NCBI RefSeq assembly: GCF_000209655.1
Contig: NC_015458.1
Span: 1,240,001 to 1,304,000, forward strand
DNA from: Pusillimonas sp. T7-7
GTDB taxonomy: Bacteria; Pseudomonadota; Gammaproteobacteria; Burkholderiales; Burkholderiaceae_B
Length of the DNA stretch: 64,000 nucleotides
Direction of reading: 5' to 3'
Of the stretch, positions 3,256 through 20,449 are shown one piece after another. Within the stretch, counting starts at the first letter, position 1; each line of letters starts with the position of its first letter. Under the pieces are notes generated by a model. The model searched no databases, was not told where the DNA came from, and was given only the letters and a program-made list of their open reading frames with translations. The position numbers and the translations under genes were made by a program.

Positions 3256-3311
3256 TGATACGCCTTCTGTTGAGCTTGCCGTAAATAGTAACATCGCAAT
3301 CCTATTTATAT

Positions 3312-3896
3312 CTAAATATTTCCTTTTAAAAATGTGATGCTTCGCCAGACCCTGTTGGCGCCCGACATTGCAACCCCCATACTGAAGCCGTATAAATGCG
3401 CCATGCTGGCGATGCGCCCGCCTATCCATCTTTCTTCCATGGTCCAAGGGCCAATAACCCATTGCCACAGCATCCAGCCTACTGTCATGGCCAAAGCAAA
3501 CGCAGCAAGACGATCCCCGCGCCGCACCTCAGGCCATAGACCCAAGAAAAACAAGCCATACAGTACGCCGGAAAAGCCGACATAATTGGTCACTTCAGGC
3601 GTCCAGCACCATAGCGATATGCCCACCCCGAAAGCCAGGCAGGCCATCCTTGGCCAGATATAAGGGTTGAAAAGCTGAGGAGCCAGTGCGCAGCACAGCA
3701 GCACACCAGCGATATTCAAGACCGTATGCGCCCAGCCCAAATGGATGAAATGTGCGGTGAAAAGACGCCACCATGCACCCTGTTCCAGGGCCTGACGGCT
3801 GAACCGTAGCGCGGCTTGTGTTTCGTCACCCCCCGCCTGTAGCAGCAATAGCAGTCCGGCCAGCATCAAGGCTTGCAGCCAAGCCTGCCTGCTCAT
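3312..3896 (-). CDS. rrtA: Rhombosortase (rhomboid-family intramembrane serine protease)
   Basis: A 194-residue polytopic membrane protein. It carries the small-rhomboid features: WRLFTAHFIHLGWAHTVLN (His57 and Asn61 in HxxxN), the catalytic serine in GFSGVLYG (Ser109) and the catalytic histidine in AHLYGF (His167). The short length and the WR..T..F.H motif fit the rhombosortase branch, which clips GlyGly-CTERM tails of proteins exported by type II secretion. The start is at 3896, where TGATG fuses the gspC stop with this ATG, suggesting translational coupling. The next gene downstream encodes a GlyGly-CTERM protein, which supports the assignment strongly. Confidence 0.87.
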   Translation of the reverse strand: MSRQAWLQALMLAGLLLLLQAGGDETQAALRFSRQALEQGAWWRLFTAHFIHLGWAHTVLNIAGVLLCCALAPQLFNPYIWPRMACLAFGVGISLWCWTPEVTNYVGFSGVLYGLFFLGLWPEVRRGDRLAAFALAMTVGWMLWQWVIGPWTMEERWIGGRIASMAHLYGFSMGVAMSGANRVWRSITFLKGNI

Positions 3897-4366
3897 CAGG
3901 GCTGGATGCTGGGTGCGGGGCTGGCAACAGGAATAAAGCCTTGCACGACCGTAAAGGGGTTGGCCGGCATGTTCAGCTGCTCTATGACGCCATCCTGATC
4001 TATGGATACTCCCTGAGCTGAAACGCCAGCCAGGGTGACTCCGGGCGCCAGTACTTGGCCTACCCGATAAGCCTGCGCCGAAGCACCATTGATCGACAAC
4101 AAGGCCGCGCCACGCTCGCCTTTCGCCGAAATCAGGCCGGCGAGCGATATCGGCACACGCAAGGCAGCACCCCCGAACCAGTTTGCGACGGCACTGATAT
4201 CCTGTCCGGAAGGGGTGGCTGGATCCAGTGCAGGCGGCTGGCTTCTTGGAACCGGAGCAAGCAGCAAAGCACTCCATACGCCTATACCCGCCGCCAACAC
4301 CACAATCGCCAGGCTGCGCAGAATATTGGGCCCATTTACGCCTGCCGGTGTGGGTAAGTTGCCCAT
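3896..4366 (-). CDS. gspC: Type II secretion inner-membrane protein GspC, short form without PDZ
   Basis: A 156-residue bitopic protein. It has one N-terminal membrane segment (about residues 16-36) and then a periplasmic homology region (about 57-125, including GLISAKGERGAALLSING and YRVGQVL) that normally docks onto the GspD secretin. The usual C-terminal PDZ or coiled-coil domain is absent; the protein ends in a Pro/Ser-rich tail. A GGAG ribosome-binding site precedes ATG 4366. It is transcribed away from the other gsp genes across a shared 190-base spacer and is coupled to the rhombosortase gene. Confidence 0.85.
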   Translation of the reverse strand: MGNLPTPAGVNGPNILRSLAIVVLAAGIGVWSALLLAPVPRSQPPALDPATPSGQDISAVANWFGGAALRVPISLAGLISAKGERGAALLSINGASAQAYRVGQVLAPGVTLAGVSAQGVSIDQDGVIEQLNMPANPFTVVQGFIPVASPAPSIQP

Positions 4367-4437
4367 ATTGACTCCGTATTTTTGATTGTCACTTGCAAAC
4401 CAACAAGATAATTCTAAAATGTACTAAAAAACAACAA

Positions 4438-4466
4438 TTGTCAAAATTTGTATGGGGACGTAAAAG
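4438..4466 (+). promoter_or_regulatory. Candidate sigma-70 promoter for the gspG-F operon
   Basis: TTGTCA at 4438-4443 (5 of 6 matches to the -35 consensus), a 17-base spacer, and TAAAAG at 4461-4466 (4 of 6 matches to the -10). It lies in the AT-rich spacer between the divergent gspC and gspG genes, about 90 bases upstream of gspG. Confidence 0.4.
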
Positions 4467-4556
4467 TAAACGCCAGTCCAGTTTCTCCGGGAGGCATGGG
4501 TCTACAAGCCCCTGCCTCCTCCGTGTTCCTCTCCTTTCTGTTGCTCCCTGCTCCCC

Positions 4557-5009
4557 ATGAAACGCCATCAATGCCATTCCTCGCAGCTTACCTTAGCCAG
4601 CCGCCAGCTAGGCTTTTCCCTTATCGAAATCATGGTGGTCGTGGTCATTATGGGGATTATGGCTGCACTTATCGTCCCTAATGTAATGGATCGCCCCGAC
4701 CAGGCACGGGCGGTGGCAGCCCGTCAGGACATCGGCGCCCTGATGCAGGCCCTGAAACTATACCGGCTGGATCACGGCCGCTATCCAGCCGCGGAACAGG
4801 GGCTGGAAGCTTTGCTTGGCAATGACCAAAGTGGCCAGGCTTCTGGCAAGCGTTCATATATGGACCATCTGCCCAATGATCCCTGGGGCACGCCATATCA
4901 ATACCTTAATCCAGGTGTGCACGGGGAAATCGATGTTTTTTCCCTGGGCGCCGACGGGCAGGCTGGCGGTGAAGGCAACGATATCGATATCGGCTCCTGG
5001 ACCAGATAA
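4557..5009 (+). CDS. gspG: Type II secretion major pseudopilin GspG
   Basis: A 150-residue pseudopilin. A 19-residue basic leader ends in Gly19, followed by FSLIE with Glu24 at position +5 of the mature protein and a hydrophobic helix, the site cut and N-methylated by a prepilin peptidase. The body has the conserved LPNDPWGTPYQYLNPG segment and the calcium-loop region (FSLGADGQAGGEGNDIDIGSW) typical of GspG. The leader is longer than usual and no strong ribosome-binding site is visible before ATG 4557. It heads the eleven-gene plus-strand operon, and gspH begins 4 bases after its stop. Confidence 0.93.
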   Translation: MKRHQCHSSQLTLASRQLGFSLIEIMVVVVIMGIMAALIVPNVMDRPDQARAVAARQDIGALMQALKLYRLDHGRYPAAEQGLEALLGNDQSGQASGKRSYMDHLPNDPWGTPYQYLNPGVHGEIDVFSLGADGQAGGEGNDIDIGSWTR

Positions 5010-5013
5010 CTCA

Positions 5014-5505
5014 ATGGTCAGACAACAAGGGTTCTCGCTTATCGAAGTATTGATGGTCTTGCTCATTATCGGCATCGCTACCACCACAGTCAGTATCGCC
5101 GCGTTCTCTAGCAGCGATGCCCGGAAGCTGCGCCAGGACGCCGAGCGTCTTGCGCAATTGTTTTCTGTTGCACAGGCCCAGGCCCGCACGGCGGGAAGTC
5201 CCATCGTCTGGATCTACGATACACAGGGATACCGCTTTACGCAGTCCCCTCATGAGTTGTTCCTGCCTGCCGGGCTGGCACGGCAAGTCGGGGCGGCGCA
5301 GTCCCTCGACTTTTCCAGCTCCAGTCCACTGCGACCCCGCAGTTGGACACCCGATAATGCGATCGAAGTCCGTATCGAGCCGCCAGGCGCCAATGTGTTC
5401 AATACCGAATGGATCTCAGGCCCAATGGTCATAGAGCTGGATGATGGCGCCGTCACTGTCCGAGTCGAACGTCTGGGCAACGGGCAATACCAGGTCAAGC
5501 AATGA
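5014..5505 (+). CDS. gspH: Type II secretion minor pseudopilin GspH
   Basis: A 163-residue type IV pilin-like protein. The very short leader MVRQQG is followed by FSLIEVLMVLLIIG (Gly6 cleavage site, Glu at +5), then a GspH-like soluble domain. GspH is a minor pseudopilin thought to sit near the tip of the periplasmic pseudopilus. ATG 5014 is chosen because it places the cleavage motif directly at the N-terminus; an upstream extension of the open frame would lie inside gspG. The stop overlaps the gspI start (ATGA, 5502-5505). Confidence 0.88.
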   Translation: MVRQQGFSLIEVLMVLLIIGIATTTVSIAAFSSSDARKLRQDAERLAQLFSVAQAQARTAGSPIVWIYDTQGYRFTQSPHELFLPAGLARQVGAAQSLDFSSSSPLRPRSWTPDNAIEVRIEPPGANVFNTEWISGPMVIELDDGAVTVRVERLGNGQYQVKQ

Positions 5506-5873
5506 GCTCGGCAAGCGCACAAACAGGGTTTACATTGATCGAGGTCCTGGTTGCGTTGGCCATCGTCAGCATTGCGTTGGCCGCCAGCATGCGGGCCCTG
5601 GGCGTCAGCGCCAGTGGCTCGCAGTCCATGCAAGAACGCAGCCTTGCACTGCAAGCAGCTGAAAACAAACTCGCAGAGCTACGCCTGCTGCGCACCTTTC
5701 CCGCACCCGGCCGCAAGGCCGAACCCTGCCCGCAAGGGCCGTTGGCTCTGGTGTGCGAGCAGCAGTTTCAGACCACCGCCAATGGCAATTTTCGCCTGGC
5801 AACTGTGCGTGTTCGCCTGAATCAAGGTCCGGTACTCGCCGAGCTGAACGGCTTGCTGTCGGCGCTGCCATGA
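5502..5873 (+). CDS. gspI: Type II secretion minor pseudopilin GspI
   Basis: A 123-residue minor pseudopilin with leader MSSASAQTG and the mature start FTLIEVLVALAIVSIALAAS. The motif LQAAENKLAELR after the helix is typical of GspI, the nucleating subunit of the GspI-J-K tip complex. It overlaps gspH by ATGA and gspJ by ATGA (5870-5873), so translation is probably coupled. Confidence 0.9.
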   Translation: MSSASAQTGFTLIEVLVALAIVSIALAASMRALGVSASGSQSMQERSLALQAAENKLAELRLLRTFPAPGRKAEPCPQGPLALVCEQQFQTTANGNFRLATVRVRLNQGPVLAELNGLLSALP

Positions 5874-6499
5874 AACATGCACCAATGAATCAGCAAGGCT
5901 TTACCTTGATCGAGGTATTGATCGCACTGGCCCTGATGGCGCTGCTCAGTATCATCTCGTGGCAGGCGCTTGATCTGGTGCAGCGCTCCAGTGAGCGCCT
6001 GAATGCCAATGCCGATGACACGCTGGCACTGGTGCGAGTGCTGGGTCAGTTGGAAAAAGATATCAACCAGCACGCTACCGCCGGTATCTTGTCACAGCCC
6101 GCCCAAACGCATGCAACTGCGGACAACCCCGTCAGCCCTGATAGCCACGCCTCTGGCCTGCTGCCGCCAGGCATACACTGGAGCGCGCCGGCGCTTACCA
6201 TATTGCGCTCAGCCCATGACGGCGCTTGGCAGCAAGTCATATGGGGCCAGGTCGGCCATACACTACAGCGCGCGGCAGGCCCTGCCTCACGCACATTACC
6301 CTTGCCCCCAGCGCAGGCAAACCAAGAGGTACTGGGGCAGATAAAGTCTTTTAGCGTACGTGCATGGATACCTGGCCAAGGCTGGACCACCCCCGACACG
6401 ACAATCAGCCAGTTGACCGCAACAGGGCTGGAAATAACCATCGTGCGCGAGCATAAGCAACAGCTGGAAACCTACAGAAAAGTGGTGCTGCTGCCATGA
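5870..6499 (+). CDS. gspJ: Type II secretion minor pseudopilin GspJ
   Basis: A 209-residue minor pseudopilin. Leader MKHAPMNQQG is followed by FTLIEVLIALALMALLSIISW. The soluble part contains ILRSAHDGAWQQVIWGQVG and ends with YRKVVLLP, fitting GspJ. The first ATG after the gspI overlap is used; a second in-frame ATG (M6) is also possible. It overlaps gspK by ATGA at 6496-6499. Confidence 0.9.
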   Translation: MKHAPMNQQGFTLIEVLIALALMALLSIISWQALDLVQRSSERLNANADDTLALVRVLGQLEKDINQHATAGILSQPAQTHATADNPVSPDSHASGLLPPGIHWSAPALTILRSAHDGAWQQVIWGQVGHTLQRAAGPASRTLPLPPAQANQEVLGQIKSFSVRAWIPGQGWTTPDTTISQLTATGLEITIVREHKQQLETYRKVVLLP

Positions 6500-7428
6500 A
6501 TAAACATCGCTACCCCATGCACAGGCGCACGGTGGCCGGACTTCATGGCCGGCAAGGCGGCATGGCGATCATAGGGGCTTTGGTGGTGGTGGCCGCAGCC
6601 TCGATTGCAACGGCGGCCATCATCGAAAGACAGGCTCTGCTGGCCGACACCCTGGCCGGCGAGCGCGATCGTGTACAAGCCAAATGGCTGTTGCGAGGGG
6701 GCCTGGACTGGTCGCGCGTCATTTTGTTTAATGATGCGCGCCGCAATTCTGTGACCCGCAAGGGCGCAATCTGGTCCCAGCCCATTGTGGGGCTGGAAGT
6801 AAGCACCCCGGGTCAAGCACGCAAAGCTTATTTTTCAGGGCAAATCGAAGATGAGCAAGGCAAATTCAATATTGCAGACCTGGCTGAAAACGGCATGCTG
6901 CGGCCGCAAGAGCTGGCAGTGCTGGAAACCTTGCTGGCCGGGCTGAATCTGCCAATTTCACTGGCGGAAGCCATTGCACGGCGGGTGGCCGAAGCACAGA
7001 CCGGACACGACGGGGCACAAGCCGCGCCGAGCCTGAGAACATTGGGTGACTTACTGCATATAGACGATATGACGCCTGAAATAATCACCATACTGAGCGC
7101 CTACGTGACCATCTTGCCGGAACAAACCACCATCAACGCCAATACAGCCAGTGCCGAAGTGCTCAGCGCAAGCGTACCTGGCCTGCAACTGGCCGAGGCA
7201 CGCGATCTTGTCGACCAACGCGACCGCGGACAATGGTTCAACAGCCGTGCCGACTTCTTTAATCGCCTGGGCAAACCCACTATCAAGCCCGGCAATCAAA
7301 TAGGGGTTAATAGCGAATGGTTCAAAGTGACCGGTCAGGTTACGCTGGGCGAGTCCGTCGCCGGCATGCAAGCCTTGCTGCATCGCCATGGCGGACAGCC
7401 CCCTTCTATAAGCTGGACCATCAACTGA
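6496..7428 (+). CDS. gspK: Type II secretion minor pseudopilin GspK
   Basis: A 310-residue protein, the large minor pseudopilin that caps the GspI-J-K tip. A 22-residue leader ends in GRQGG and is followed by MAIIGALVVVAAASIATAA. Position +5 is Gly rather than Glu, a known peculiarity of the GspK family. The body contains GQIEDEQGKFNIADL and INANTASAEVL, the helix-hairpin-like GspK signature. gspL starts one base after the stop. Confidence 0.92.
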   Translation: MNKHRYPMHRRTVAGLHGRQGGMAIIGALVVVAAASIATAAIIERQALLADTLAGERDRVQAKWLLRGGLDWSRVILFNDARRNSVTRKGAIWSQPIVGLEVSTPGQARKAYFSGQIEDEQGKFNIADLAENGMLRPQELAVLETLLAGLNLPISLAEAIARRVAEAQTGHDGAQAAPSLRTLGDLLHIDDMTPEIITILSAYVTILPEQTTINANTASAEVLSASVPGLQLAEARDLVDQRDRGQWFNSRADFFNRLGKPTIKPGNQIGVNSEWFKVTGQVTLGESVAGMQALLHRHGGQPPSISWTIN

Positions 7429-7429
7429 C

Positions 7430-8455
7430 ATGAAGAACACTCTGCGCCTGGTCCTGCCCCCTCTTGCACAAGTCGCACCCGACTGCATGGTAGCGTTTGC
7501 GCTTCATGACCGCCACGGCCGGCTGCTGCGCTCTGGCCTGATGCCTTTGATCCAACTTGCGCAAGCCATGCCGACCGCACAGGCGCAGGTCATTTTGCAT
7601 CCCGGCGACGCAATCGTCACCACCATCCGCCTTCCGCCCTTGCCTGCCAAACGCCTTGATGCTGCCGTGCAAGCCAGCGTTGAACCTATGGCGCTCAGCG
7701 ATCTTTCGAAGCTGTGCATCGCTCACGGGCCCCGCGCCGCCGATGGCAGCGTCTGCGTGGCCTGGGCAGACCGTCCCGCCCTGCTGCAAGCCTGGCGACA
7801 GCTTGACGAGCTGGGTCTTAAAGTGGACGGCCTCGTGCCGTTTCCCCTGGCCATACCCCAGGATGATCCCCAACCCGATCAGGCGCTGGCCCTGCCTGTT
7901 AACGAGCGCTGGTTGACTGCGCTGCCGCGCTGGTCGCTGGCAAGGCCCGAATGGCGCCCGGTTTCGCACAGCAAACGCTGGCGCAGTCCCTTGTTATGGC
8001 TGTGCGCCGCTGTCTTGCTGTGGCTGGCCGGTCTGCAGCTGTATGCCGCCCAGCTGCGCGACGAAGCCAATGCGCTGCGGGCATCCACTGAAACCGCCGT
8101 ACGCAACGCTTTTCCATCAATATCCATCATTCTTGACCCGGTCAAACAAGCGCGCGGCCAACGCGACATACTGCGTCTGGAGCATGGCTCGGCCAGCACC
8201 AATGGATTCATGCCCCTGGCAATGGGAGCTGCCGAACTGCTGACTTTTGCTGAAGGCCATATCTCTTCTTTGCAATATGAAAAAGGAACCCTGACGCTCG
8301 TGCTGAACGAAAGCTATACCCCGCCATCGAACGAGGTGTCCTTGCATCAGGCCGCCGCCGCTCAGTCTCTAGTGCTGGAAAAAGACCAGAAAGCCGCCCA
8401 TACCTGGCACATTCGGCATACCGATACGCCGCTCACCGCCAAGGCCCAGCCATGA
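7430..8455 (+). CDS. gspL: Type II secretion inner-membrane protein GspL
   Basis: A 341-residue protein with an N-terminal actin-like cytoplasmic domain (about residues 1-180) that normally binds the GspE ATPase. A single membrane segment follows around 187-207 (LLWLCAAVLLWLAGLQLYAA), then a periplasmic ferredoxin-like domain. Only the general GspL architecture and operon position support it, since GspL proteins diverge strongly. Its stop overlaps the gspM start by four bases (8452-8455). Confidence 0.82.
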   Translation: MKNTLRLVLPPLAQVAPDCMVAFALHDRHGRLLRSGLMPLIQLAQAMPTAQAQVILHPGDAIVTTIRLPPLPAKRLDAAVQASVEPMALSDLSKLCIAHGPRAADGSVCVAWADRPALLQAWRQLDELGLKVDGLVPFPLAIPQDDPQPDQALALPVNERWLTALPRWSLARPEWRPVSHSKRWRSPLLWLCAAVLLWLAGLQLYAAQLRDEANALRASTETAVRNAFPSISIILDPVKQARGQRDILRLEHGSASTNGFMPLAMGAAELLTFAEGHISSLQYEKGTLTLVLNESYTPPSNEVSLHQAAAAQSLVLEKDQKAAHTWHIRHTDTPLTAKAQP

Positions 8456-9051
8456 GTTCGCATCCGCCTCCGTCAAACTCTTCGCCCGCCTTGATATGGC
8501 GTCAACAAGTTAATACGCTGTCCCAACAGATACGGTCCTGGTGGAATGCCCGCAGCCGGCAGGAACGCAAGCTGTTGCGGCTATGCGCCGTCGTTATCGT
8601 CCTTGCGCTGTTATGGGTGCTGGGGCTGCAACCTGCACTGAGGTCCATAGAGCGATCACGCGTGCAACTTCCTCTGTTGCACGCCGACGCAGCACAAGTA
8701 CAAGCCTACATACTCGAGGCTCAGGCGCTACAGCGCCGTCACACAGGGAAGATCGACGCAGCCGACCTGACACAAGCCCTGTACACCAGCCTGCAGCGCG
8801 CAGGCCTGCAAGAGGCCACGACCTTGAGTGAAGTGCACACCCCCGACAGTATCTCGATGCAACAGTGGGAGGTCGCGGTGTTCAATGCCAGTGCCGCACG
8901 CGTTATGGCCTGGCTGGCGGAACTGCCCTATTTGCTTCGTTTGCAGATATCAATGGTCGAGCTCGAGCGTGCTAGTGTCGAAGGTCGCGACAGGCCAGGA
9001 CACGTATCGGGGCATATTCTGGTTCGCAAAGCCGTAAAGGACCAGCCATGA
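8452..9051 (+). CDS. gspM: Type II secretion inner-membrane protein GspM
   Basis: A 199-residue bitopic protein. A cytoplasmic N-terminus with SRQERKLLRLCAV leads into one membrane segment (VVIVLALLWVLGLQPAL, about 44-62), followed by a periplasmic domain that pairs with GspL. The RQERKLL before the helix is typical of GspM. Start and stop overlap gspL and gspN by ATGA, so the GspL-M-N proteins are likely made in step. Confidence 0.82.
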   Translation: MSSHPPPSNSSPALIWRQQVNTLSQQIRSWWNARSRQERKLLRLCAVVIVLALLWVLGLQPALRSIERSRVQLPLLHADAAQVQAYILEAQALQRRHTGKIDAADLTQALYTSLQRAGLQEATTLSEVHTPDSISMQQWEVAVFNASAARVMAWLAELPYLLRLQISMVELERASVEGRDRPGHVSGHILVRKAVKDQP

Positions 9052-9803
9052 GCTTGTGGAGCCGCCTTTTTATGACTGTAGCGCTGATGCTGCTGGCCTG
9101 CTGCGCTGCGCTGCTTGTGCTGCCGGCCCGCTGGGTCATGACAGTGTTGCCCGGTAACTGGCCCCTGACCGTAGTGAATGCCAACGGCACGATCTGGTCA
9201 GGCAGCGCAAACTTTGCCTTGGGTGCACGCGAGCACCAACGCACTGTCACCGCGCCATTGCACTGGAAAGCGTCTTGGTCCCAAGGACCCAAACTGACGC
9301 TGACTCACCCCTGGCTGCTTGGCCCTGTGGTCCTTAGACCGGCCTGGCTCGGCCTGGCCATATCGGGTCAGACCATGCAATTGCCCGCCGCAGCATTGGC
9401 GACACTGGACGCCCGTATAGCGGCCATTGGTCCAGCCGGCGCCTTGTCGGTCAAATGGCCCGCGAGCATCATCGGAGGCGCTACGCAGCCGCCGGGAGCC
9501 ACGTTGCTGGAAGCCCAGTGGCTCGACGCGGCATCGACATTGACACCAATTCGTCCGTTGGGCAGCTACGCTCTTGCGCTGAACCAGGCTGCTTCAGGTC
9601 TTGTGGACATCACCCTCAGTACCCGACAAGGACCATTGATTCTGAAAGGTAAAGGCGTACTGGATGGCAACAAACGATTGCACTTCGACGGCACAGCACA
9701 GGCAGACCCGGCCGCCAGCAGCGATGTCCATGCGGCACTGCGCGACGTGCTGGCCGCGCTGGGTCCCCAGCGGAACAATCAAACTCTACTGCGTATTCGT
9801 TAA
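9048..9803 (+). CDS. gspN: Type II secretion protein GspN
   Basis: A 251-residue protein with an N-terminal membrane anchor (about 5-26) and a periplasmic beta-rich domain containing WPLTVVNANGTIWSGSA, characteristic of GspN. This component is present only in some T2SS and is often dispensable. It starts inside the end of gspM and lies 34 bases before gspD. Confidence 0.82.
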   Translation: MSLWSRLFMTVALMLLACCAALLVLPARWVMTVLPGNWPLTVVNANGTIWSGSANFALGAREHQRTVTAPLHWKASWSQGPKLTLTHPWLLGPVVLRPAWLGLAISGQTMQLPAAALATLDARIAAIGPAGALSVKWPASIIGGATQPPGATLLEAQWLDAASTLTPIRPLGSYALALNQAASGLVDITLSTRQGPLILKGKGVLDGNKRLHFDGTAQADPAASSDVHAALRDVLAALGPQRNNQTLLRIR

Positions 9804-9837
9804 CGCAACTCACAGAATAGGCCCTAGTGATTCAGTC

Positions 9838-12216
9838 ATGAAAAATTTCTATAAAGCTGAGCAACGCTGCTATCGCATCCGCCCCACGCTCTCCACGCTG
9901 GCGCTGGCCCTGGCCCTGGCTGGCTGCGCTACCCCCGATCCCGGCGCCAATGCCAACAACAATCCGTCTCAGTTGGTGGTGCATACGTCCACAGGCAACG
10001 GCTGGCAACAGGAAGGACGGCGCAGCACAAGCACCAAGCCTGTACCAGAGTCCAGAACCCGCACGCGCCGTTTAACGCCAACTGCGGCAAATCCCGGCAC
10101 AGAAGGCCCAACGCTTACCGCAGAGCCCACATCCGATGCGCCCGGCAACGACATCATGCTTAACTTCGTGGAGGCCGATCTGCAAGGTGTCGTGCGTGCG
10201 CTGGCTCGCTTTACCGGGCACAATTTTGTGGTGGATCCTCGCGTCAAAGGCCAGTTAACCCTTGTATCGGAAGCCCCCGTCGACCAGGACACGGCCTATG
10301 CCATGCTGCTCAGCGCGCTACGCATGCAAGGCTTTGCCGTGGTGGACGTAGACGGCGTAAGCCGGGTCGTTCCTGAAGCCGATGCAAAACTGCTGGGCAC
10401 TCCGGTGGCAGGTCCGCGGCAAGCCGGCAGCGCCTATGGCGGCGAACTCATTACGCGCGTGTTTCCGCTCAAGTTTGAAAATGCGACCAATCTGGTACCC
10501 ATACTGCGGCCCATGATCGCACCCAACAACACCATTAATGCCTACGCCGGCAACAATACACTGGTCATTACCGACTATGCCGACAACCTTGATCGCATCG
10601 CCCAGGTCATTGCCGGCATTGATACCCCCCAATCCATCAACACCGATGTGGTACCCATCCATTATGGCGTTGCGCTTGATGTTGCCGCCCTGGCCACACA
10701 ACTGCTGGGCAACAACACAAACGGCGCCGGCATGCAGGCCACCGTGGTTGCAGATCCGCGCAGCAATTCCATTCTGCTGCGCGCTGCCACGCCCGCTCAA
10801 CTGGGCATCGCGCGCGACCTGATCGAGCGCATAGACAATCCGGAAACCCAAAGCGGAAACTTGCACGTGGTGTACTTGCGCAACGCCCAGGCTACCCGTC
10901 TGGCGGAAGTTCTACGTGGTGTGCTGAGTGGCCAGGATGGCAACACGCCGTCGAATAACGATCCATTTGGCGCATTGTCCGGTGAAACAGGCGGCGCGCT
11001 GTCGGGCAACAACCAGGGCCGACTCAATACCAGCACAAACGCCACGATGGGTTCCGGCTCGAACAGCAACCTGATGGCTGGCTCGACCGAGGGCGTGGGC
11101 GGCGCCCTGGGTGGTTCGCGCAACTCCGCGCAGTCCCTTGCTTTTACTGCAGGCGGAGCCACCATACAGGCCGATCCATCCACCAACACACTTATTATTT
11201 CTGCGCCGCCACCGCTATACCGCAGCCTGCGTGAAGTCATAGATCAGCTGGACCAGCGCCGCGCACAAGTACTGGTTGAAAGTCTGATCGTTGAAGTCAG
11301 CACCGACAAAGCCGCCGAATTCGGCATTCAATGGATGGCCGGCGGCAACGATCTATCGAGCGGGAACACATCTTTCATGGGTGGCGCCAACTTTAACGGC
11401 AGCGGCATCAACCCAAGCGGGATCACCACCATCGACGCTCTGGCCCAAGGCCTGAGTCTGGGTGTGGTGAAGGGTACTGTCGACATTCTGGGTACCGAAA
11501 TTCTGAATCTGGGTGTATTGGCCCGCGCCCTGGAATCCAAGGGTGATGCCAACGTACTATCCACCCCCAACCTGATGACCCTGGACAACGAAGAAGCCAG
11601 CATCATCGTGGGGCGCACAGTGCCTTTCGTGACTGGGCAATACACCACCTCGGCCGATGGTGCGAGCAACCCCTTCCAGACCGTCACGCGTGAAGATGTG
11701 GGTCTGACGCTGCGCATACGGCCGCAAATTTCCGAAGGCGGCACGGTCAAGATGGCGATTTACCAGGAAGTCAGCAGCATAGACGGGGCCGCCTCCAGTG
11801 CGGGCGCCGGGCTGATCACACGCAAGCGCGCGCTGGAAACCAACGTGCTGGTCGACGATGGGCAAATCATTGTGCTGGGCGGCTTGCTTGAGGACACCAT
11901 CAGCGACAGCACGAGCGCAGTGCCGGTGCTGGGCGATATTCCAGTACTGGGCAATCTGTTTCGCTACGACAAGCGCAGCCGGACCAAGACCAATTTAATG
12001 GTGTTCCTGCGCCCTCATATTGTCCGCAATGCACGGGATGGCGCCAGCGTGACGCTGGACCGCTACAACTATATGCGTGGGGCCCAGGCAGGACTGCCGA
12101 TGCGATCCACCTGGTTCTCGCCGGACGCCACCATGCAGAAGCTGCCCGAAATCCTGCGCGATCCAGGCACTGGCCTGCTGGATCTGCGCGATCCTTCGCC
12201 TCCGGGAGCGCTATGA
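9838..12216 (+). CDS. gspD: Type II secretion outer-membrane secretin GspD (lipoprotein form)
   Basis: A 792-residue secretin, the outer-membrane channel. The signal peptide ends in the lipobox LALAGC (Cys30, Ala at +2). Next come the N0 domain ([24 protein letters not shown]) and repeated N1-N3 ring domains ([32 protein letters not shown]). A Gly/Asn/Ser-rich linker follows at about 370-430, and then the C-terminal beta-barrel domain with [19 protein letters not shown] 9838 is chosen because it begins the signal sequence. No separate pilotin is seen; the lipid anchor may replace one. gspE overlaps its end by ATGA. Confidence 0.94.
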
Positions 12217-13634
12217 CCACACGGCTACCCTATGCCTGGGCGCGCACTCATCGGGCACTGATCCAGACGGGGTCTGCCGGCACGGTGTTGACCACGACTG
12301 CCCGCACGCCGGCCTGGGCGTTGGCTGAAATCCGGCGGCGCCACGGCGAACTCACTCGACGGGAAGTCGGCGAGTCCGAACTGGACACGCTGCTGGCGGC
12401 CTCTTATGCGCAAACGGGGGATGCGGCTGCGGTAGTGGATGCAGCCAGCAACGAAATCGACCTTGATCGCCTGATGCAGGAAATTCCTGAAGTGGAAGAC
12501 TTGCTGGAAGCCCACGACGACGCGCCGGTCATCCGCATGATCAACGCCCTGTTCACCCAGGCCGTACGCGACGGCGCCAGCGACATACACCTGGAAGTCT
12601 TTGAGGCCCATTCTGTGGTGCGCTACCGGGTTGACGGCACCTTGCGTGACATCGTCAACCCCAGGCGCGCGCTGCATAATGCGTTGGTGTCCCGCATCAA
12701 GATCATGGCAAGCCTGGACATTGCCGAAAAACGTTTGCCGCAAGATGGGCGCATTGCCTTGCGCGTAGGCGGACGCCCCATTGATGTACGCGTGTCAACA
12801 CTGCCCACCGGCCATGGCGAGCGCGCCGTGCTACGCCTGCTGGACAAAGAAGCAGGACGGCTGGAACTGGAGCGCCTGGGCATGGCGCCTGAAGTACTGG
12901 CCAGACTCGACGGGCTCATACGCCAGCCCCATGGCATTGTATTGGTGACCGGCCCCACAGGCAGCGGTAAAAGCACGACCTTGTATGCTGCGCTGGGTCG
13001 GCTGGACGCCACCACCACCAATATTCTGACGGTGGAAGACCCTATCGAATATGACCTGCCCGGCATAGGCCAGACCCAGGTCAACGCCCGCATTGACCTG
13101 AACTTCGCAACGGCCTTGCGAGCCATTTTGCGTCAGGATCCCGATGTGATCATGATAGGCGAGATCCGTGACCTGGAAACCGCCCAGATCGCCGTTCAAG
13201 CATCATTGACCGGTCACCTGGTGCTGGCAACCTTGCATACCAATGATGCCGTATCGGCGGTAACCCGGCTGACTGATATGGGCGTTGAGCCTTTTCTGCT
13301 GGCCTCTACTCTGCAAGGCGTACTGGCACAGCGCTTGATCAGAAAGCTGTGCCCGCATTGCAAATCCAGTGACCCTGACGGCACTGCCGCCTGGACGCCG
13401 GGAGGATGCACAGCCTGCAGCCATACCGGATACACAGGCCGCACCGGCGTACATGAACTATTCGTGCTGGACGACAACACACGCAGCCTGATACATGCCG
13501 ATGCGGGTGAGCAGGCGCTGCGCCACGCCGCACAGCAATCAGGCATGCGCAGCCTGCGTCAGGACGGCACGCGCTGGGTGAAGCTGGGCATCACCACCGA
13601 TGAAGAAATGGCCCGTGTAACACGCGACGCCTGA
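12213..13634 (+). CDS. gspE: Type II secretion ATPase GspE
   Basis: A 473-residue cytoplasmic ATPase that powers pseudopilus assembly. It shows Walker [10 protein letters not shown] (Lys253), the Asp box [14 protein letters not shown], Walker [13 protein letters not shown] and a four-cysteine zinc site (Cys380/Cys383 and Cys399/Cys402, CPHC and CTAC). The N-terminal GspL-binding part is shorter than in many relatives. It overlaps gspD by four bases and precedes gspF by 19. Confidence 0.95.
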
Positions 13635-13653
13635 GCCAGAGGACGGAGCCGAT

Positions 13654-14862
13654 ATGCCTACCTATCAATATGAAGCCTCGAACGCCGCCGGTCGTATGGA
13701 GCGCGGGCTGGTCGACGCCGACACCGAGCGCAATGCCCGGCAAATACTGCGCACGCGCGGTTTGCTGCCACTGTCGCTGAAAGATACTGGCGGCCGCAGT
13801 AAAAGCGGCCCGCTGTTCATCGGCAGGCGCATCAGCGATACTGACCTGGGATGGTTGACCCGCCAACTGGCCAGTTTGCTGGCTGCAGGTCTGACGCTGG
13901 AAACAGCGTTGAGTGCGACGCTGGATCAGGCCGAACGCCAGCATGTGGCACACGCCCTGGCTGCAGTCCGGGCCGATATTCGCGCCGGCCACCGGCTGGG
14001 TGAGGCACTGGCGGCACGCCCGCGTGACTTCCCCCCTATTTATCGCGCGCTGATCGACGCCGGTGAACAATCGGGCGACTTGTCGCAGGTGATGGAAAAA
14101 CTGGCCGACTACATCGAATCACGCGGCGCCCTGCGCAACAAGATTCTGACGGCGTTCATCTACCCCATCATCGTATCGGTCGTTTCTATAGGCATAATAA
14201 TTTTTCTGCTGAGCTACGTGGTGCCTCAAGTGGTGGGCGCCTTTAACCATACTCAGCAAACCCTTCCCTTGCTTACCCGCATCATGCTGGCCGCCAGTGG
14301 CTTCGTGCAGGACTGGGGCGCCATCGCCGCCTTGATCCTGGCCTTGATGTTCGGGTTGTGGCGCTGGCATCTGCGTCACCCGGCCGCCCGCCTTGCATGG
14401 CACACAAGAATATTGGGCATGCCTTTATTCGGCCGTTATGCGCTGGGAGTCAATACTGCACGCTATGCGGCTACGCTGGGCATTCTGACCAGCAGCGGCG
14501 TTCCCCTGTTGGCCGCACTCGAGGCCTCGCGCCGCACCTTGAGCAACGACAGGCTGCGCGTGGCCGTCGACGAAGCCACGCGTCATGTACGGGAAGGCAG
14601 CCCGCTGGCGCCGTCGCTGGCGGCGCAAAAGGTTTTCCCTTCGCTGTTGATACACCTGATCGGCAGCGGCGAGCGCACAGGCGAAATGCCTGCCATGCTG
14701 GAGCGGGCCGCAAAAACGCTGGCCAATGAGCTGGAACGCCGGGCCATGACCATGACCGCCCTGCTTGAACCGTTGATGATTCTGTTCATGGGTGGAATTG
14801 TGCTGCTGATTGTGCTGGCCGTGATGATGCCCATTATTGAAATCAATCAGATGATTCAGTAA
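13654..14862 (+). CDS. gspF: Type II secretion inner-membrane platform protein GspF
   Basis: A 402-residue polytopic protein with two repeated GspF/PilC cytoplasmic domains. The first includes LTRQLASLLAAGLTLETAL and EAL-type segments around residue 110; the second includes TLGILTSSGVPLLAALEAS. Three membrane helices are visible, the last being MILFMGGIVLLIVLAVMMPI. It organises the assembly platform. It is the last gene of the gsp operon; no prepilin peptidase (gspO/pilD) is present in the window and one must be encoded elsewhere. Confidence 0.94.
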   Translation: MPTYQYEASNAAGRMERGLVDADTERNARQILRTRGLLPLSLKDTGGRSKSGPLFIGRRISDTDLGWLTRQLASLLAAGLTLETALSATLDQAERQHVAHALAAVRADIRAGHRLGEALAARPRDFPPIYRALIDAGEQSGDLSQVMEKLADYIESRGALRNKILTAFIYPIIVSVVSIGIIIFLLSYVVPQVVGAFNHTQQTLPLLTRIMLAASGFVQDWGAIAALILALMFGLWRWHLRHPAARLAWHTRILGMPLFGRYALGVNTARYAATLGILTSSGVPLLAALEASRRTLSNDRLRVAVDEATRHVREGSPLAPSLAAQKVFPSLLIHLIGSGERTGEMPAMLERAAKTLANELERRAMTMTALLEPLMILFMGGIVLLIVLAVMMPIIEINQMIQ

Positions 14863-15004: not shown

Positions 15005-17164
15005 ATGACGAAGATTCCCGCACTGCTGACTCTAGCTTTTGCCGCAATAGGGTTGACTGCCTGCGATAGCAGCAGCAACAGCACGGCTTCGAACGATACC
15101 CCACCCAATATTTTGTTTGTTGTGCTTGACGACCTGGGCGTAGACCAACTACCGGTATTCGGTTATGGCGGCCTGACACCGGCCAGCACCCCCAATCTGG
15201 ATGCCATTGCACACGCTGGCGTGCGCTTTCGAAACGCCTGGTCCATGCCCACTTGCACGCCTACCCGCGCAACTTTTTTTCAGGGGCGTTACCCCATGCG
15301 CACAGACGTTCTGAATGCCGTCGTCGCTCTGGACCTGGCCAACTCCCAAGTCTCCCCCTTTGAAAAGACCACACCCAAGCTTTTAAAGGAAAAGGGCTAC
15401 GTCAACGCGCTCATCGGCAAAATGCACTTGTCGGGCTCCGACCTGAACACCGCCAACAATCCCCTGGGCAATGGCGTCATGCATGAACTGGGTTGGGATT
15501 ATTTTGAAGGCTATCTTGATGGCGGCCCCTACCCCATTGATACGACCGCAGGGGGTGTAAGCCAGGTCAACAACGGCTTCTATGGCTGCGGCTTTGTTCC
15601 CAACACCACAGACGACCCCACCTACGGCGCTGACAGCGGCGCATGCTATCAAGCCAGCGGCAGTTGTTCGGCGCTGTCTTTGGCCGACGCCCCAACGCCA
15701 GGCCGCACTTGTATGGAACACGGCGGCATTTTCGATCCCGGCCAATCCTGCAAACCGGTCAAGCCCGCCTACCTGGATTTTGAAACCCAGAATGGCTACT
15801 ACACGGGTGAGTGGATCATCAACCTGCCTGATGGCAGCGTGCAGGTCTTGCCCGCGTCCGATGCCAGCAGCCGCGGTTATCGCAGCATCATGGAAACAGA
15901 CCGCGCCCTGGCCTGGCTCAAGCAACAATCGGCTGATCAACCCTGGATGCTGAGCGTGGGTTATTCCGCCATACATACGCCACTGCATCAACCCCCGGTA
16001 GCACTGCTGCCCGCAGGGTCCGAAGAAACCGGCGCATTCACTTGCGGCACCGGCGTCGTGGCAGAACAGCGCACCATTACCAACCAGATGCTGGAAGGGC
16101 TCGATAGCGAAATTGGCCGCCTGCTGGTCGAAGCGGGTATTGCTCAATTCAAACCGGACGGCACGCTTGATTACCAACCCGAAAAGACCAATACCGTGGT
16201 GGTCATCATGGCCGACAACGGCACTTATGCGCCCAGCGTAAAGGCGCCGTTCAACCCGGCCCGCGCCAAGGGCTTCCCTTATCAAGGGGGCGTCTGGGTT
16301 CCCTTGATCGTGGCTGGCCCCATGGTAAGCCAGCCCGATCGTGACGTTCCGCACATGGTCAACTCCACCGACTTATACAGCCTGTTCGCCGAAGTGGCCG
16401 GCATAGACCTGGCCACCGCCGTGCCCGCCAGCCACAGTGTCGACGCCGAAGCTCTGCTGCCCTACCTGACCAACCCCAGCCAGGCCAGCATACGCAGTGT
16501 CAACTACACCGAGATGGGTACCAATATCACCTCGACCACCGTGCCATCCGCCCCTCCCTGCGTCATACCGGCCTCGAATGTCTGCGTGCAGGTGTTCCCC
16601 CAAGAGGGGGTATGCCTGGACCAAAGCGGGATCTGGTATGGCCCGGGCGGAGTCGCCGGCGCCCAAGGGCTGGGGTCTTGCTGCGCGGTCAACGACTACC
16701 GGATCACGCAGGGTGAAGAGGTCGTCGACATCATGCCGGATTCTCAAAGGGCCATACGCAACGAATTCTATAAACTGGTGCGCATAGAACGCCTGAATTG
16801 CAGTACCAATCAGCTGGAATCCACCGACGAGTTCTATCACGTCAACCAGGCAACACCTATACCGAAGCTGGATAACAAACCCGGCAATTTGCTGGCGCAT
16901 GCCGTCATGACGCCGGAGCACCAGCAAAACTACGAAAGCCTGAAGACAGAACTGCAGAAGCTGACCGACAGCAGAATCCAATGCCCGGGTGACGGCAATC
17001 TTGATTTAATCGTGGACGCTGCCGACGTGCAGAACTGGAAGCGCTTCAGCACTGAAAACGGCGGCAACTCCAGCTGGTACGACTTTAATCACGACGGCCT
17101 CACCAACGAGGCCGACTTGGCTGTAATCAATCAGAATATGGGTAGGGATTGCCGGCCGGCTTAA
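15005..17164 (+). CDS. Lipoprotein sulfatase with dockerin-like C-terminus (sulfatase A)
   Basis: A 719-residue Cys-type sulfatase. The signal peptide ends in lipobox LTAC with Cys20 lipidated and Asp21 at +2. Metal-site residues appear in FVVLDDLG, and the catalytic motif is CTPTR with Cys84, the residue converted to formylglycine. Downstream are a Lys/His-bearing GKMH segment and VVIMADNGTYAP. Two Cys-rich insertions (about 190-250 and 520-560) each contain C-x-[DE]-x-x-G-I-[FW]. Residues 660-719 form a Cys-bounded, dockerin-like pair of calcium loops (GDGNLDLIVDAAD; DFNHDGLTNEAD). ATG 15005 has GGAG upstream. The sulfated substrate is unknown. It converges on the formylglycine-generating enzyme gene, sharing TTAA for both stops. 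Confidence 0.88.
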   Translation: MTKIPALLTLAFAAIGLTACDSSSNSTASNDTPPNILFVVLDDLGVDQLPVFGYGGLTPASTPNLDAIAHAGVRFRNAWSMPTCTPTRATFFQGRYPMRTDVLNAVVALDLANSQVSPFEKTTPKLLKEKGYVNALIGKMHLSGSDLNTANNPLGNGVMHELGWDYFEGYLDGGPYPIDTTAGGVSQVNNGFYGCGFVPNTTDDPTYGADSGACYQASGSCSALSLADAPTPGRTCMEHGGIFDPGQSCKPVKPAYLDFETQNGYYTGEWIINLPDGSVQVLPASDASSRGYRSIMETDRALAWLKQQSADQPWMLSVGYSAIHTPLHQPPVALLPAGSEETGAFTCGTGVVAEQRTITNQMLEGLDSEIGRLLVEAGIAQFKPDGTLDYQPEKTNTVVVIMADNGTYAPSVKAPFNPARAKGFPYQGGVWVPLIVAGPMVSQPDRDVPHMVNSTDLYSLFAEVAGIDLATAVPASHSVDAEALLPYLTNPSQASIRSVNYTEMGTNITSTTVPSAPPCVIPASNVCVQVFPQEGVCLDQSGIWYGPGGVAGAQGLGSCCAVNDYRITQGEEVVDIMPDSQRAIRNEFYKLVRIERLNCSTNQLESTDEFYHVNQATPIPKLDNKPGNLLAHAVMTPEHQQNYESLKTELQKLTDSRIQCPGDGNLDLIVDAADVQNWKRFSTENGGNSSWYDFNHDGLTNEADLAVINQNMGRDCRPA

Positions 17165-18291
17165 GCCGGTTCAGGCGCATCCTTGACCAGTCTGAAGCCC
17201 AGATGCGACATGGGGCTGTATGGGTCAGAGCTGCGCCGGGCGCTTGGCCTATACGACAGGCAGTACGATTCATTGCATAAAAACGAGCCGCCACGTATGA
17301 CCCGCTTGGGAGCATTGGCCGGGACGCCGGGCTCGTTGGGATCAAAAGACTCGCCCGGACCCTTGGGGTTGTCTATGGGCTTTTGCCCCGCTTGCGCCTG
17401 CATGGCGAAGTAGTCAAAGCGATACCAGTCGGACACCCACTGCCACGCATTGCCTGTCATGTCGTGCAGACCGTAGCCATTGGGCGGAAACGTACCGGCC
17501 GGCACGGTATTGGCGGCCCCGCCGGCCTTGGGGCTGACCACCGGAAACGGCTGCTCGGTGGTATCCCAATAGTTGGCCTGCATCTCACCATTGGGCATGA
17601 GCTCATCGCCCCACACATAAGTGGCCTGCTCCAGGCCTCCGCGCGCGGCAAATTCCCACTCGGCTTCCGTAGGCAGACGCTTACCTGCCCAGGTTGCATA
17701 AGCCTGCACATCAACATAGCTGACCTGCACCACGGGGTGGTCGCCCTTGCCTTCGATGGAGCTGCCCGGACCCTGGGGGTGGCGCCAGTTGGCCCCAGGC
17801 ACATAACGCCACCACTGGGAATAGTCATTCAGATTCACTTGCGCATTGGTGCCCACAAAAACCATTGCGCCAGGCTGCAGCACATGGTCAGGCGGCTGCG
17901 GTACACCGGGCGGCAACTGTACGCGTATGGTTTCCCAATCGGGCTTCTGCTCAGCCGTGGTCAGATAGCCCGTCTTTTCCACAAACTCGGCAAACTGGTC
18001 ATTGGTGACGTGGGTGACGTCCATCCAGAAGCCGTGAACCTTGACTTGATGCGTGGGGCGCTCGTTGGGCTGGGCCAGCTTGCTGTCACTGCCCATCAGG
18101 AATACGCCGCCTGGCACCCAGGCCATGTTTTGAGGCGTACTTACACCATCGCCAAGGACCACGACAGGCTCTGCAACGGTTTGCCGCGATGGCCAGGCCA
18201 TCCATGCGGCCGCGCCACCGGCAGCCGCCAGCCCCAAGGCTGCTACGCTCATCATCAGTATGCGGCGGCGTGGCAGCTTAGTGCAGCGCAT
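17161..18291 (-). CDS. Membrane-anchored formylglycine-generating enzyme (SUMF1/FGE family)
   Basis: A 376-residue protein that probably oxidises the sulfatase cysteine to formylglycine. After a basic, twin-arginine-like start (LPRRR) there is one hydrophobic helix (about 11-33), so the enzyme domain should lie in the periplasm or be exported. The FGE domain runs from MAWVPGGVFLMGSD to GFRLV and contains RLPTEAEWEFAARGG and WQWVSDWYR. Both copper-binding cysteines of the active site are present in GGSFLCNESYC (Cys339 and Cys344, spaced as Cys336/Cys341 in human FGE), so this is a true FGE rather than a cysteine-less relative. It begins inside the 3' end of sulfatase B (14-base overlap), indicating one transcript. 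Confidence 0.87.
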   Translation of the reverse strand: MRCTKLPRRRILMMSVAALGLAAAGGAAAWMAWPSRQTVAEPVVVLGDGVSTPQNMAWVPGGVFLMGSDSKLAQPNERPTHQVKVHGFWMDVTHVTNDQFAEFVEKTGYLTTAEQKPDWETIRVQLPPGVPQPPDHVLQPGAMVFVGTNAQVNLNDYSQWWRYVPGANWRHPQGPGSSIEGKGDHPVVQVSYVDVQAYATWAGKRLPTEAEWEFAARGGLEQATYVWGDELMPNGEMQANYWDTTEQPFPVVSPKAGGAANTVPAGTFPPNGYGLHDMTGNAWQWVSDWYRFDYFAMQAQAGQKPIDNPKGPGESFDPNEPGVPANAPKRVIRGGSFLCNESYCLSYRPSARRSSDPYSPMSHLGFRLVKDAPEPA

Positions 18292-20449
18292 AGGTTTTTT
18301 CGCAGGTTTTACCCAGGTTGTTCTGAATGACCGCTTCGTCGGCGTTGTTGGTCAGGCCGTCGAATACACCATTGCTGGCAAAATCATAGACGCTGGACAG
18401 CCCCCATTCATGAGCGATGCGGCGCCACTCGGCCAGGTCTTTGGCATCCACCACGCCATCCATATTGCCATCGCCCGGGCAGTCGGGGTTAGAGGCCAGC
18501 ATACGCTCTAGCTTGGCGCGTAAATCGTCGTAGATGGCCTGAGTTTGAGGCGTTGGAGACAGCAGCAGATTACGATCGGGCGTATCGAGCAGTGGTTTGG
18601 GAACAGCCTGGTTTATCTGGTACAGCTCTTCGGTAGTGGATGATCCGAAGCTATCGGTGGCTGGCTCATAGGTTTGGGTGATGTTCCTGACCAGTTTGTA
18701 ATCATCATCGCGTATGGCCATTGAGGTTTCAGGCAGGATATTGATCAGCGGCTGATTGTCTTTGGACAGGGCCTGATTCACTTCGCCACACATCAGGTAG
18801 CCCTCGCCACCATTGTCGACTACCGAAGCGTCGGTATAGCCTGGACCCCACCATATGCCCTGATTGTCTTCGCACACGTTCTTATTGACGGGTATCTGGG
18901 AGCAGCTGCCTGCGATGACACAAGGACCGTTACGCGCACCATATGCCTGGGTGTTGACACCGCCCAGAGTGAAATTGATAGTACGCAAGCTGGGCTGACC
19001 TGGGTTGGTCAGGTAAGGCAACACGCTTGCGGAATCAATGGTGTAGGGCACACTCTGTTGGACGTCTATATCGGCCAGCTCACCAAAAAGCTGAAACATA
19101 TCTACGGTATTGACCATATGGGCAACTTCACGGTTGGGCTGTGCGACCTGCGGCCCCGCAACGATCAAAGGGGTCCACACACCTGTTTGATAGGCTGTGC
19201 CCTTGGCTTGACTGAGTTGGAAGGGAAACTTGACCGCAGAGCCCAAAGAGCCGTTATCGCCGGCAATGATAATAATGGTATTGGATGCGGCAGGGTTGTA
19301 AACCAGCTTGCCGTCGGCATCGCGCTGGGCCATGCCGGTATCGACCAGAAGCCGGCCAAATTCAGTGTCCATGGCCTCGGTCATTTTGTCTTGTATCAGA
19401 CGACCGGCAACGCTGCCCTTGCAATCCAGGCCGCTGGCGGCCGGGCCCTCGTAGCCGCTTACCAGGCCGCCGGGAGGCTGTTGCCATGGCGTATGGGCCG
19501 CACTGTAGCTGACAGTAGCCATCCAGGGCCTGTCGTCGCTACGTGTTTTGATCCAGTCTATGGCCGCTTGGGTTTCTATACGGGTACGATAGCCGCGCGA
19601 GCGGGGGTCGGTCAGTGGCACCTCTTCCATGGTCGCCCCATCGATAATGACCAGAGGCGACACGTAATAGCCATTTTGACGTGTGAAATCCAGCGAGGCC
19701 GGCGGCACGCCGCACATTTCATCACGCACAAAAATTCCGCCGGAATCCAGGCATTGCATACCCGCTGAATCTTGCGTTGGCGAGCTATGGCTGATTTCCT
19801 TGCAGCTATTGTCGGCCTGGTAGCAGGCGCCGGCATTGGCGCCGCCCAAGTTGGGTTTGGCCGGTACAAAGCCGCAACTATAGGTGTTTTCAGGTGCAAC
19901 ACCGCCTGCCGTGGTGTCGACCGATGCCGGCAGCCCGCCTATCCAGCCGTAGAAATAATCCCAACCCAAAACGCTGGGTGTTAAATTTTCAGCCTCGTTA
20001 TTTTCAGGGCCGGCCAAATGAAATTTGCCGAACATGGCGCTTTCATAACCGGCCTGCTTGAGCATTTTGGGCGCCGTCATGGCATAGGGCGATATCTGCG
20101 AGTTGGCCAAATCGTTCTGGCCTATGGCTTGGCGGATATCGGTCCTGGTCGGATACTGCCCAAGGAAGAAAGCGGCACGGCCGGGCGAACACTCGGGCAT
20201 GGACCAGGTATTGCGAAAACGCACTCCAGCATGGGCAATGGTGTCGATGTTGGGCATTTTGGGCTGGATCGTGCCCCCGTAGCCAAAGGACGCCATTTGA
20301 TCTATGCCTACGTCGTCCATGATGACAAAGAGAATATTCGGAGGGTTGCTGGCTTGTTCGTTCGTCCCCCCGCTGTTATTGCTGTCGCACGCAGTCAAGG
20401 CCGTGACGGCAAACGCGGCCGTTAACAAAACCGGAAGTTTTTTGGGCAC
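18278..20449 (-). CDS. Lipoprotein sulfatase with dockerin-like C-terminus (sulfatase B)
   Basis: A 723-residue paralogue of the convergent sulfatase A. Lipobox LTAC has Cys21 followed by Asp22 at +2. FVIMDDVG supplies metal-binding Asp residues, CSPGR carries catalytic Cys87, and MFGKFHLAG and IIAGDNGSLG are family motifs. Two Cys-rich insertions again hold C-x-[DE]-x-x-G-I-[FW]. Residues 657-723 form a dockerin-like tail whose first loop (DGNMDGVVDAKD) is a near-perfect calcium loop. The start is GTG 20449, preceded by AGGAG at 7 bases. The FGE gene follows with overlap, so the sulfatase and its maturase are probably co-expressed. Substrate unknown. Confidence 0.88.
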   Translation of the reverse strand: MPKKLPVLLTAAFAVTALTACDSNNSGGTNEQASNPPNILFVIMDDVGIDQMASFGYGGTIQPKMPNIDTIAHAGVRFRNTWSMPECSPGRAAFFLGQYPTRTDIRQAIGQNDLANSQISPYAMTAPKMLKQAGYESAMFGKFHLAGPENNEAENLTPSVLGWDYFYGWIGGLPASVDTTAGGVAPENTYSCGFVPAKPNLGGANAGACYQADNSCKEISHSSPTQDSAGMQCLDSGGIFVRDEMCGVPPASLDFTRQNGYYVSPLVIIDGATMEEVPLTDPRSRGYRTRIETQAAIDWIKTRSDDRPWMATVSYSAAHTPWQQPPGGLVSGYEGPAASGLDCKGSVAGRLIQDKMTEAMDTEFGRLLVDTGMAQRDADGKLVYNPAASNTIIIIAGDNGSLGSAVKFPFQLSQAKGTAYQTGVWTPLIVAGPQVAQPNREVAHMVNTVDMFQLFGELADIDVQQSVPYTIDSASVLPYLTNPGQPSLRTINFTLGGVNTQAYGARNGPCVIAGSCSQIPVNKNVCEDNQGIWWGPGYTDASVVDNGGEGYLMCGEVNQALSKDNQPLINILPETSMAIRDDDYKLVRNITQTYEPATDSFGSSTTEELYQINQAVPKPLLDTPDRNLLLSPTPQTQAIYDDLRAKLERMLASNPDCPGDGNMDGVVDAKDLAEWRRIAHEWGLSSVYDFASNGVFDGLTNNADEAVIQNNLGKTCEKTYALH

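Follow-up and report, generated by a model that had tools for sequence, protein, structure and literature searches.

Two large sulfatases are encoded beside a type II secretion system (T2SS) in the 64,000-nucleotide stretch of the Pusillimonas sp. T7-7 genome analysed here (the window), and the locus raises the question of whether they are lipid-anchored cargo of that T2SS and, if so, what marks them as such. A preliminary description had answered yes, arguing from the Asp that directly follows the lipobox Cys of both proteins. The present analysis suggests that the pair are probably surface lipoproteins exported with the help of GspN and the T2SS, of the PulA/InvL kind, although the argument from Asp is not the one that leads there. 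Statements attributed below to PMC12802150, PMC6469965 and PMC2996285 refer to parts of these papers.

The sulfatase locus

Sulfatase 1 starts 142 nt downstream of gspF, and the two sulfatase genes flank a gene for a formylglycine-generating enzyme (FGE) of their own, the group adjoining the T2SS cluster (Table 1). Given a PF00884 match, a CxPxR motif and an FGE in the genome, both proteins are predicted to be formylglycine-dependent sulfatases. Searching the window's genome with a family profile recovered two full-length members, both in the window; the matches elsewhere were three, all partial and weaker. A further four proteins of the genome match PF00884, and none shows a lipobox pattern within the first 90 residues of its frame. 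The structure model of the sulfatase was only moderate (mean pLDDT 72.8). When a C-terminal Pfam domain was sought, sulfatase 1 gave only a sub-threshold Dockerin_1 match (E 0.033) and sulfatase 2 gave none. A promoter scan detected no promoter-like site close to either sulfatase start, and a terminator scan detected one terminator-like site, at 20563, with 0.5 expected by chance. A spermidine-synthase-like protein (PF01564) is encoded at 20647-21573 on the plus strand; its N-terminus, NRRSFLLALAG..., resembles a Tat-type export signal.

Table 1. Features of the locus, in window coordinates
Feature	Position	Strand	Evidence and remarks
DUF5648 protein, GlyGly-CTERM-like tail	1429..3468	-	PF18885
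Rhombosortase	3312..3899	-	TIGR03902 122.9 bits (cut-off 84)
gspC	3896..4366	-	PF11356 32.2 bits (cut-off 27)
gspG, H, I, J, K, L, M	4557..9051	+	gspH and gspJ by pilin motif and position only
gspN	9048..9803	+	PF01203 58.5 bits (cut-off 29.6)
gspD	9838..12216	+	TIGR02517 642.3 bits; lipobox LAGC, Ala at +2; start picked by eye
gspE + gspF	12213..14862	+	PF00437 and PF00482
Sulfatase 1	15005..17164	+	719 aa, ATG start; PF00884 93.4 bits (cut-off 25); active-site motif CTPTR
P1'-P8' of sulfatase 1	15062..15085	+	CDSSSNST; G/S/D/N in 6/7 residues past Cys
FGE	17161..18291	-	PF03781 266.4 bits; 14-nt overlap with sulfatase 2
Sulfatase 2	20449..18278	-	723 aa, GTG start; PF00884 98.6 bits (cut-off 25); active-site motif CSPGR
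P1'-P8' of sulfatase 2	20366..20389	-	CDSNNSGG; G/S/D/N in 7/7 residues past Cys

The T2SS cluster extends from 3896 to 14862, with gspC and the rhombosortase gene on the minus strand followed by gspG-H-I-J-K-L-M-N-D-E-F on the plus strand. The earlier statement that the sulfatases lie next to a full T2SS was borne out, in that gspC, gspD-M and gspN are present; "full" refers to these genes, gspO lying outside the inventory. The gspN of the cluster is the only GspN match found in the genome, and the sulfatases thus share their genome with a GspN-bearing T2SS. Its product was modelled well (pLDDT 91.8); a Foldseek search with this model returned 0 PDB matches at E ≤ 0.001 and did not confirm the beta-taco fold described in the part of PMC12802150 used here. 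Lipobox-like GspD starts were also seen in the relatives L049, L051, L052 and L088.

Beside gspC, next to the rhombosortase, lies the DUF5648 protein, a possible second display route in this island; its tail looks right by eye and scores 11.9 bits against TIGR03501, under the cut-off of 15.5. The idea that the sulfatases use a display route besides GlyGly-CTERM is the best reading for the sulfatases themselves, with the GlyGly-CTERM-like partner scoring under threshold. GlyGly-CTERM anchoring of the sulfatases was ruled out, as both end in a soluble, Cys-bearing tail.

The catalytic domain of the FGE aligns with those of solved FGEs and keeps the Cys pair. At its N-terminus, the protein has an Arg-rich segment and a hydrophobic stretch, which by eye are also present in most of 44 relatives (an FGE homologue occurs in 44 of the 77 loci derived from the best 80 of 146 matches, see below), and formylglycine formation may therefore be periplasmic rather than cytoplasmic. 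From this segment we infer an exported, membrane-anchored enzyme that would work on the Sec-exported sulfatase in the periplasm; its export is perhaps Tat-dependent. To our knowledge, the characterised bacterial FGEs are cytosolic.

Family survey and linkage to gsp genes

A scan of the genome collection, taken to the best 80 of 146 matches, yielded 77 loci with 106 family segments, of which 85 have a scored lipobox and 21 do not; adding the window pair gave 87 scored lipidated members. After inspection, with the window pair and the protein of genome G208 added and the partial sulfatase 2 of L122 omitted, there were 108 rows: 89 lipidated, 16 soluble and 3 in neither class. Here "lipidated" means that a lipobox is predicted, and "soluble" that the signal peptide is of the signal peptidase I type by eye. 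The three unclassed rows are L082 copy 1 (no in-frame lipobox), L103 (fused N-terminus) and L110 (QSGC); L093 (MPGC) and L085 (start cut off, Cys visible) were assigned by hand to the lipidated class in the tree and in the table of genomes, and stand outside the 87. No other C-terminal anchor was seen by eye in the tails of the soluble relatives. In L103, from Methylobacter, a sulfatase domain (~9700-12058) is fused behind a long N-terminal region, and the genome has GspD with no GspN found. Wider surveys returned family matches in 3 of 369 genomes of the class and 4 of 399 of the order, the window's own genome being counted in both; judged by N-termini, G776, G140 and probably G789 repeat L079, L110 and L091. 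The best locus for sulfatase 2 among the best 80 of 146 matches was that of Pollutimonas harenae (89% identity), in keeping with an Alcaligenaceae-like organism.

Within 10-kb flanks, gsp genes were found at 20 of the 77 loci from these best 80 of 146 matches, in two arrangements, either beside gspF, as in the window, or beside gspG; in L079 (Gallionella), gspE-F on one side and gspG on the other enclose the sulfatase and FGE genes. The linkage threshold itself gives 21 of 77, from which L108 was dropped, its matches possibly belonging to another pilus system, and the counts rest on gsp genes other than gspD. By our own arithmetic, chance linkage would be ~1% per locus, the loci being related to one another. 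No clear gsp genes were present within the flank at the remaining 57 loci, some of which are short contigs.

Lipoboxes and the stretch after the Cys

Both sulfatases start with a signal peptide that carries a lipobox for signal peptidase II, and the preliminary description was accurate on this point: the lipobox is LTAC in each, followed by Asp (Cys20-Asp21 and then SSSNST in sulfatase 1; Cys21-Asp22 and then SNNSGG in sulfatase 2). In an alignment of 23 hand-chosen rows, Cys21 is invariant. According to the sections of PMC12802150 drawn on here, a G/S- or N/D-rich stretch past the Cys is required, yet not sufficient, for T2SS lipoproteins; the rule is more than four G/S or N/D residues in P2'-P8', with hybrids in other species. 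The window proteins have 6/7 and 7/7 such residues, in mixed G/S/D/N composition.

This composition separates the family from other lipoproteins better than Asp at +2 does. At least 5/7 G/S/D/N residues in P2'-P8' occurred in 77 of the 87 lipidated members, as against 5 of 42 other predicted lipoproteins (p = 9e-18; family members from the best 80 of 146 matches). One of these five, RlpA-like by eye, is a lipoprotein of the window's own genome (6/7), and the motif is therefore not exclusive. In eight homologues (L093, L094, L096, L099, L102, L104, L105 and L107), a W, K, F or R at +2 precedes a D/S/G-rich run; their hosts are Halopseudomonas, Pseudomonas, Alcanivorax and Marinobacter, mostly GspN-bearing (L093 stands outside the GspN classes).

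Asp at +2

The residue at +2 varied among the 87 scored lipidated members from the best 80 of 146 matches: Gly in 28, Asp in 25, Ser in 12, Asn in 11 and others in 11 (Trp 4, Phe 3, Lys 2, Arg 1 and Tyr 1, all in other gammaproteobacteria). Asp is thus absent at this position in 62 of 87. The closest relative of sulfatase 1 in that set (L049 of Pollutimonas harenae, 92% identity) has Gly, and in L049, where the gene arrangement is the same as in the window, sulfatase 2 keeps Asp at +2 and sulfatase 1 has Gly. Where the locus is linked to a T2SS, Asp was more frequent (16 of 29, as compared with 7 of 56 elsewhere), again within the best 80 of 146 matches, an excess that may reflect kinship.

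Against other lipoproteins, Asp at +2 is nevertheless enriched, being found in 25 of 87 family sulfatases (best 80 of 146 matches) and in none of 42 others (Fisher p = 2e-5, which overstates independence because the 87 sequences are related). The 42 comprise 16 predicted lipoproteins from the window's genome (0 of 16 with Asp; the sample was the window and 60 stretches of 20 kb each, together 1.264 Mb of the 3.92 Mb) and 26 non-sulfatase lipoproteins from the relatives' loci; they come from a home-made rule that is probably incomplete, and at least one of them, a GspI-like pilin in L065, is likely to be a false positive. Outside the enterobacteria, Asp at +2 is a less common Lol-avoidance signal, as stated in the part of PMC6469965 consulted. 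By the Escherichia coli rule, then, both window proteins carry the residue, and the lipidated family does not keep it. As a reason for regarding the sulfatases as T2SS cargo, Asp at +2 is weak, given 25 of 87, Gly in a 92%-identical relative and a rule that is mainly enterobacterial; as a conserved or sufficient signal it was rejected on the same counts. The case corrects the shortcut by which Asp at +2 alone is taken as the mark of a T2SS lipoprotein.

GspN and lipidation across genomes

GspN, long considered dispensable, was linked to lipoprotein cargo in 2025 in Acinetobacter baumannii and Klebsiella pneumoniae (PMC12802150). In the sections of that paper used here, Roberts et al. report that the T2SS lipoproteins of A. 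baumannii need GspN and that soluble CpaA does not, and PulN is described as needed for the surface location of PulA. This rule predicts that in T2SS genomes without GspN, family members should not be lipidated, and the prediction was tested in 74 genomes, namely 72 reached through the loci (best 80 of 146 matches), the window's own and G208.

A PF01203 search of the 72 genomes gave matches in 39 of 50 and 20 of 22. One of the 13 misses was false, since in L076 a GspN sits between gspM and gspD, and a 19-row GspN profile agrees; absence elsewhere therefore leans on this second profile too, which found no GspN in the other 12 missed genomes, nor in G208, which came from the class survey. GspD scored over the cut-off in 46 of 50 genomes checked among the 72 and in 6 of 6 in a further check that included G208 and the window's genome.

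Lipidated members occurred in 54 genomes with GspN and in 0 without, and soluble members in 6 with GspN and 8 without (Fisher p = 4e-7; best 80 of 146 matches). Four lipidated genomes stand outside this two-by-two table, L073, L090 and L093 having no GspD over the cut-off and the L085 contig ending inside gspD; two further genomes, L103 (no GspN found) and L110 (with GspN), belong to neither lipidation class. Among the 74 genomes, drawn from the best 80 of 146 matches, none in which a T2SS was shown and GspN was missing carried a lipidated member. Two genomes of the order survey outside the 74, G762 and G789, are likewise lipidated with GspN.

Seven of the eight soluble genomes without GspN are metagenome drafts. 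GspD exceeded the cut-off in seven of the eight; in L111 it is in pieces (best 342.6 bits against 351.35). A broad GspN profile had no match in the T2SS stretches of seven of the eight or of L103, some of these being short contigs. G208, a soluble genome without GspN, is a single contig, 100% complete, with a GspD of 668.7 bits. The pattern of GspN and predicted lipoboxes agrees with the prediction, short of proof, and the six soluble genomes with GspN fit a GspN that permits lipidation and does not force it. The tree requires 6-7 changes for lipidation and 5 for GspN; ~3 independent pairs agree, 0 disagree and 1 is a tie (p = 0.25), a test that could not reach 0.05 because there are too few pairs.

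Proposed route and alternatives

The directly observed features are the genes, lipoboxes, motif, gspN, linkage and the pattern of lipidation against GspN, and from them we infer lipidation, periplasmic FGE action, dependence on GspN and the T2SS, and surface location of the sulfatases. Sec would export both as prolipoproteins, and the exported FGE would turn the active-site Cys into formylglycine in the periplasm, ahead of folding. Lgt and signal peptidase II would then lipidate and cut them at Cys20/Cys21. The Gly/Ser/Asp/Asn-rich stretch past the Cys, of which Asp at +2 would be one part, may divert the sulfatases from the Lol route and enable GspN to hand them over to the neighbouring T2SS; the folded proteins would pass GspD, and the lipid would hold them at the outer surface of the outer membrane. 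It is the G/S/D/N-rich motif, the gspN in the cluster, the recurrent gsp linkage and the GspN pattern in relatives that make lipid-anchored T2SS cargo the best reading, and the claim of the preliminary description stands in part, on these, while its rationale from Asp does not carry it. Weighing against this reading are the small number of independent pairs, the draft state of most soluble genomes without GspN, the motif in the RlpA-like lipoprotein, the ElpS case described below, the lipoboxes with W, K, F, Y or R at +2 and the 57 loci with no clear gsp genes.

That the sulfatases are instead Lol-routed outer-membrane lipoproteins, facing the periplasm or flipped outwards (for example by Slam) without the T2SS, and that the gsp linkage records shared regulation or history, seems to us unlikely. 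Asp at +2 is no general Lol-avoidance signal outside the enterobacteria in the part of PMC6469965 seen, Caulobacter crescentus ElpS offers a precedent (PMC2996285, in part), the RlpA-like lipoprotein also has a G/S-rich stretch, and 57 of 77 loci (best 80 of 146 matches) lack clear gsp linkage; yet two large sulfatases are gsp-linked in 20 of these 77 loci, and lipidated members number 0 in the eight T2SS genomes with no GspN found, as against 54 with it. Retention in the inner membrane by Asp at +2, with the enzymes acting in the periplasm, would follow from the enterobacterial rule (PMC6469965, in part) and appears highly improbable, as Asp varies even among the closest relatives, soluble relatives exist and the family is linked to the T2SS.

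A further alternative, which concerns the GspN pattern alone and could be compatible with export by GspN and the T2SS, is that the pattern reflects shared ancestry, methanotroph-like lineages without GspN happening to have soluble sulfatases for non-causal reasons. We regard this as possible, though somewhat doubtful: five of nine soluble rows without GspN fall in one starred clade and the independent-pairs test is not significant, but the tree demands 6 changes of the soluble, GspN-lacking label, of which starred branches force at least 5, and the pairs were never reversed in 200 pairings. We offer, tentatively, that GspN is a gate permitting lipidated cargo to evolve and that the family switches between free and anchored forms accordingly, in combination with periplasmic FGE maturation. 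If so, gain or loss of one T2SS part would rewire where a sulfatase acts. The occurrence of lipidated and soluble versions in one sulfatase family, the lipidated one only in genomes with GspN or outside the GspN classes, gives independent comparative support for the tie between GspN and lipoproteins.

Comparison with known systems

The window pair shares the sulfatase fold region and the CxPxR motif with the formylglycine-dependent S1 sulfatases in the PDB, the best match being 6ust, an N-acetylgalactosamine 6-sulfate sulfatase (102.4 bits). The best matches are largely confined to the catalytic part at the N-terminus (for 6ust, residues 37-153), and the window proteins differ in having ~720 aa with extra Cys-rich inserts.

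As a warning case, ElpS matters most. Like the window pair, it comes from a gene that neighbours a gspN-bearing T2SS, and in the sections of PMC2996285 used here it is a surface lipoprotein that does not need the T2SS, which affects its release only. Because ElpS reaches the surface without its neighbouring T2SS, adjacency alone proves nothing.

Klebsiella PulA, as far as described in the sources covered, resembles the window pair: it too is a hydrolase whose lipobox is followed by Asp, and its gene adjoins a T2SS with gspN. It is a different enzyme with a different fold, its T2SS dependence is measured whereas that of the sulfatases is predicted, and the Asp at +2 varies in the sulfatase family. 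The A. baumannii InvL kind shares the G/S- or N/D-rich stretch and a GspN-bearing T2SS (PMC12802150, in part). In the same sections, the list of A. baumannii T2SS lipoproteins includes a protein annotated as an arylsulfatase; apart from it, the portions of the open-licence PMC literature covered contained no tie between a sulfatase family and GspN or T2SS surface display. Unlike the InvL and arylsulfatase cargo as described there, the window pair adjoins its T2SS and its own FGE. The locus provides a test system in an environmental member of the Burkholderiales, in which two candidate cargoes lie next to their own machine.
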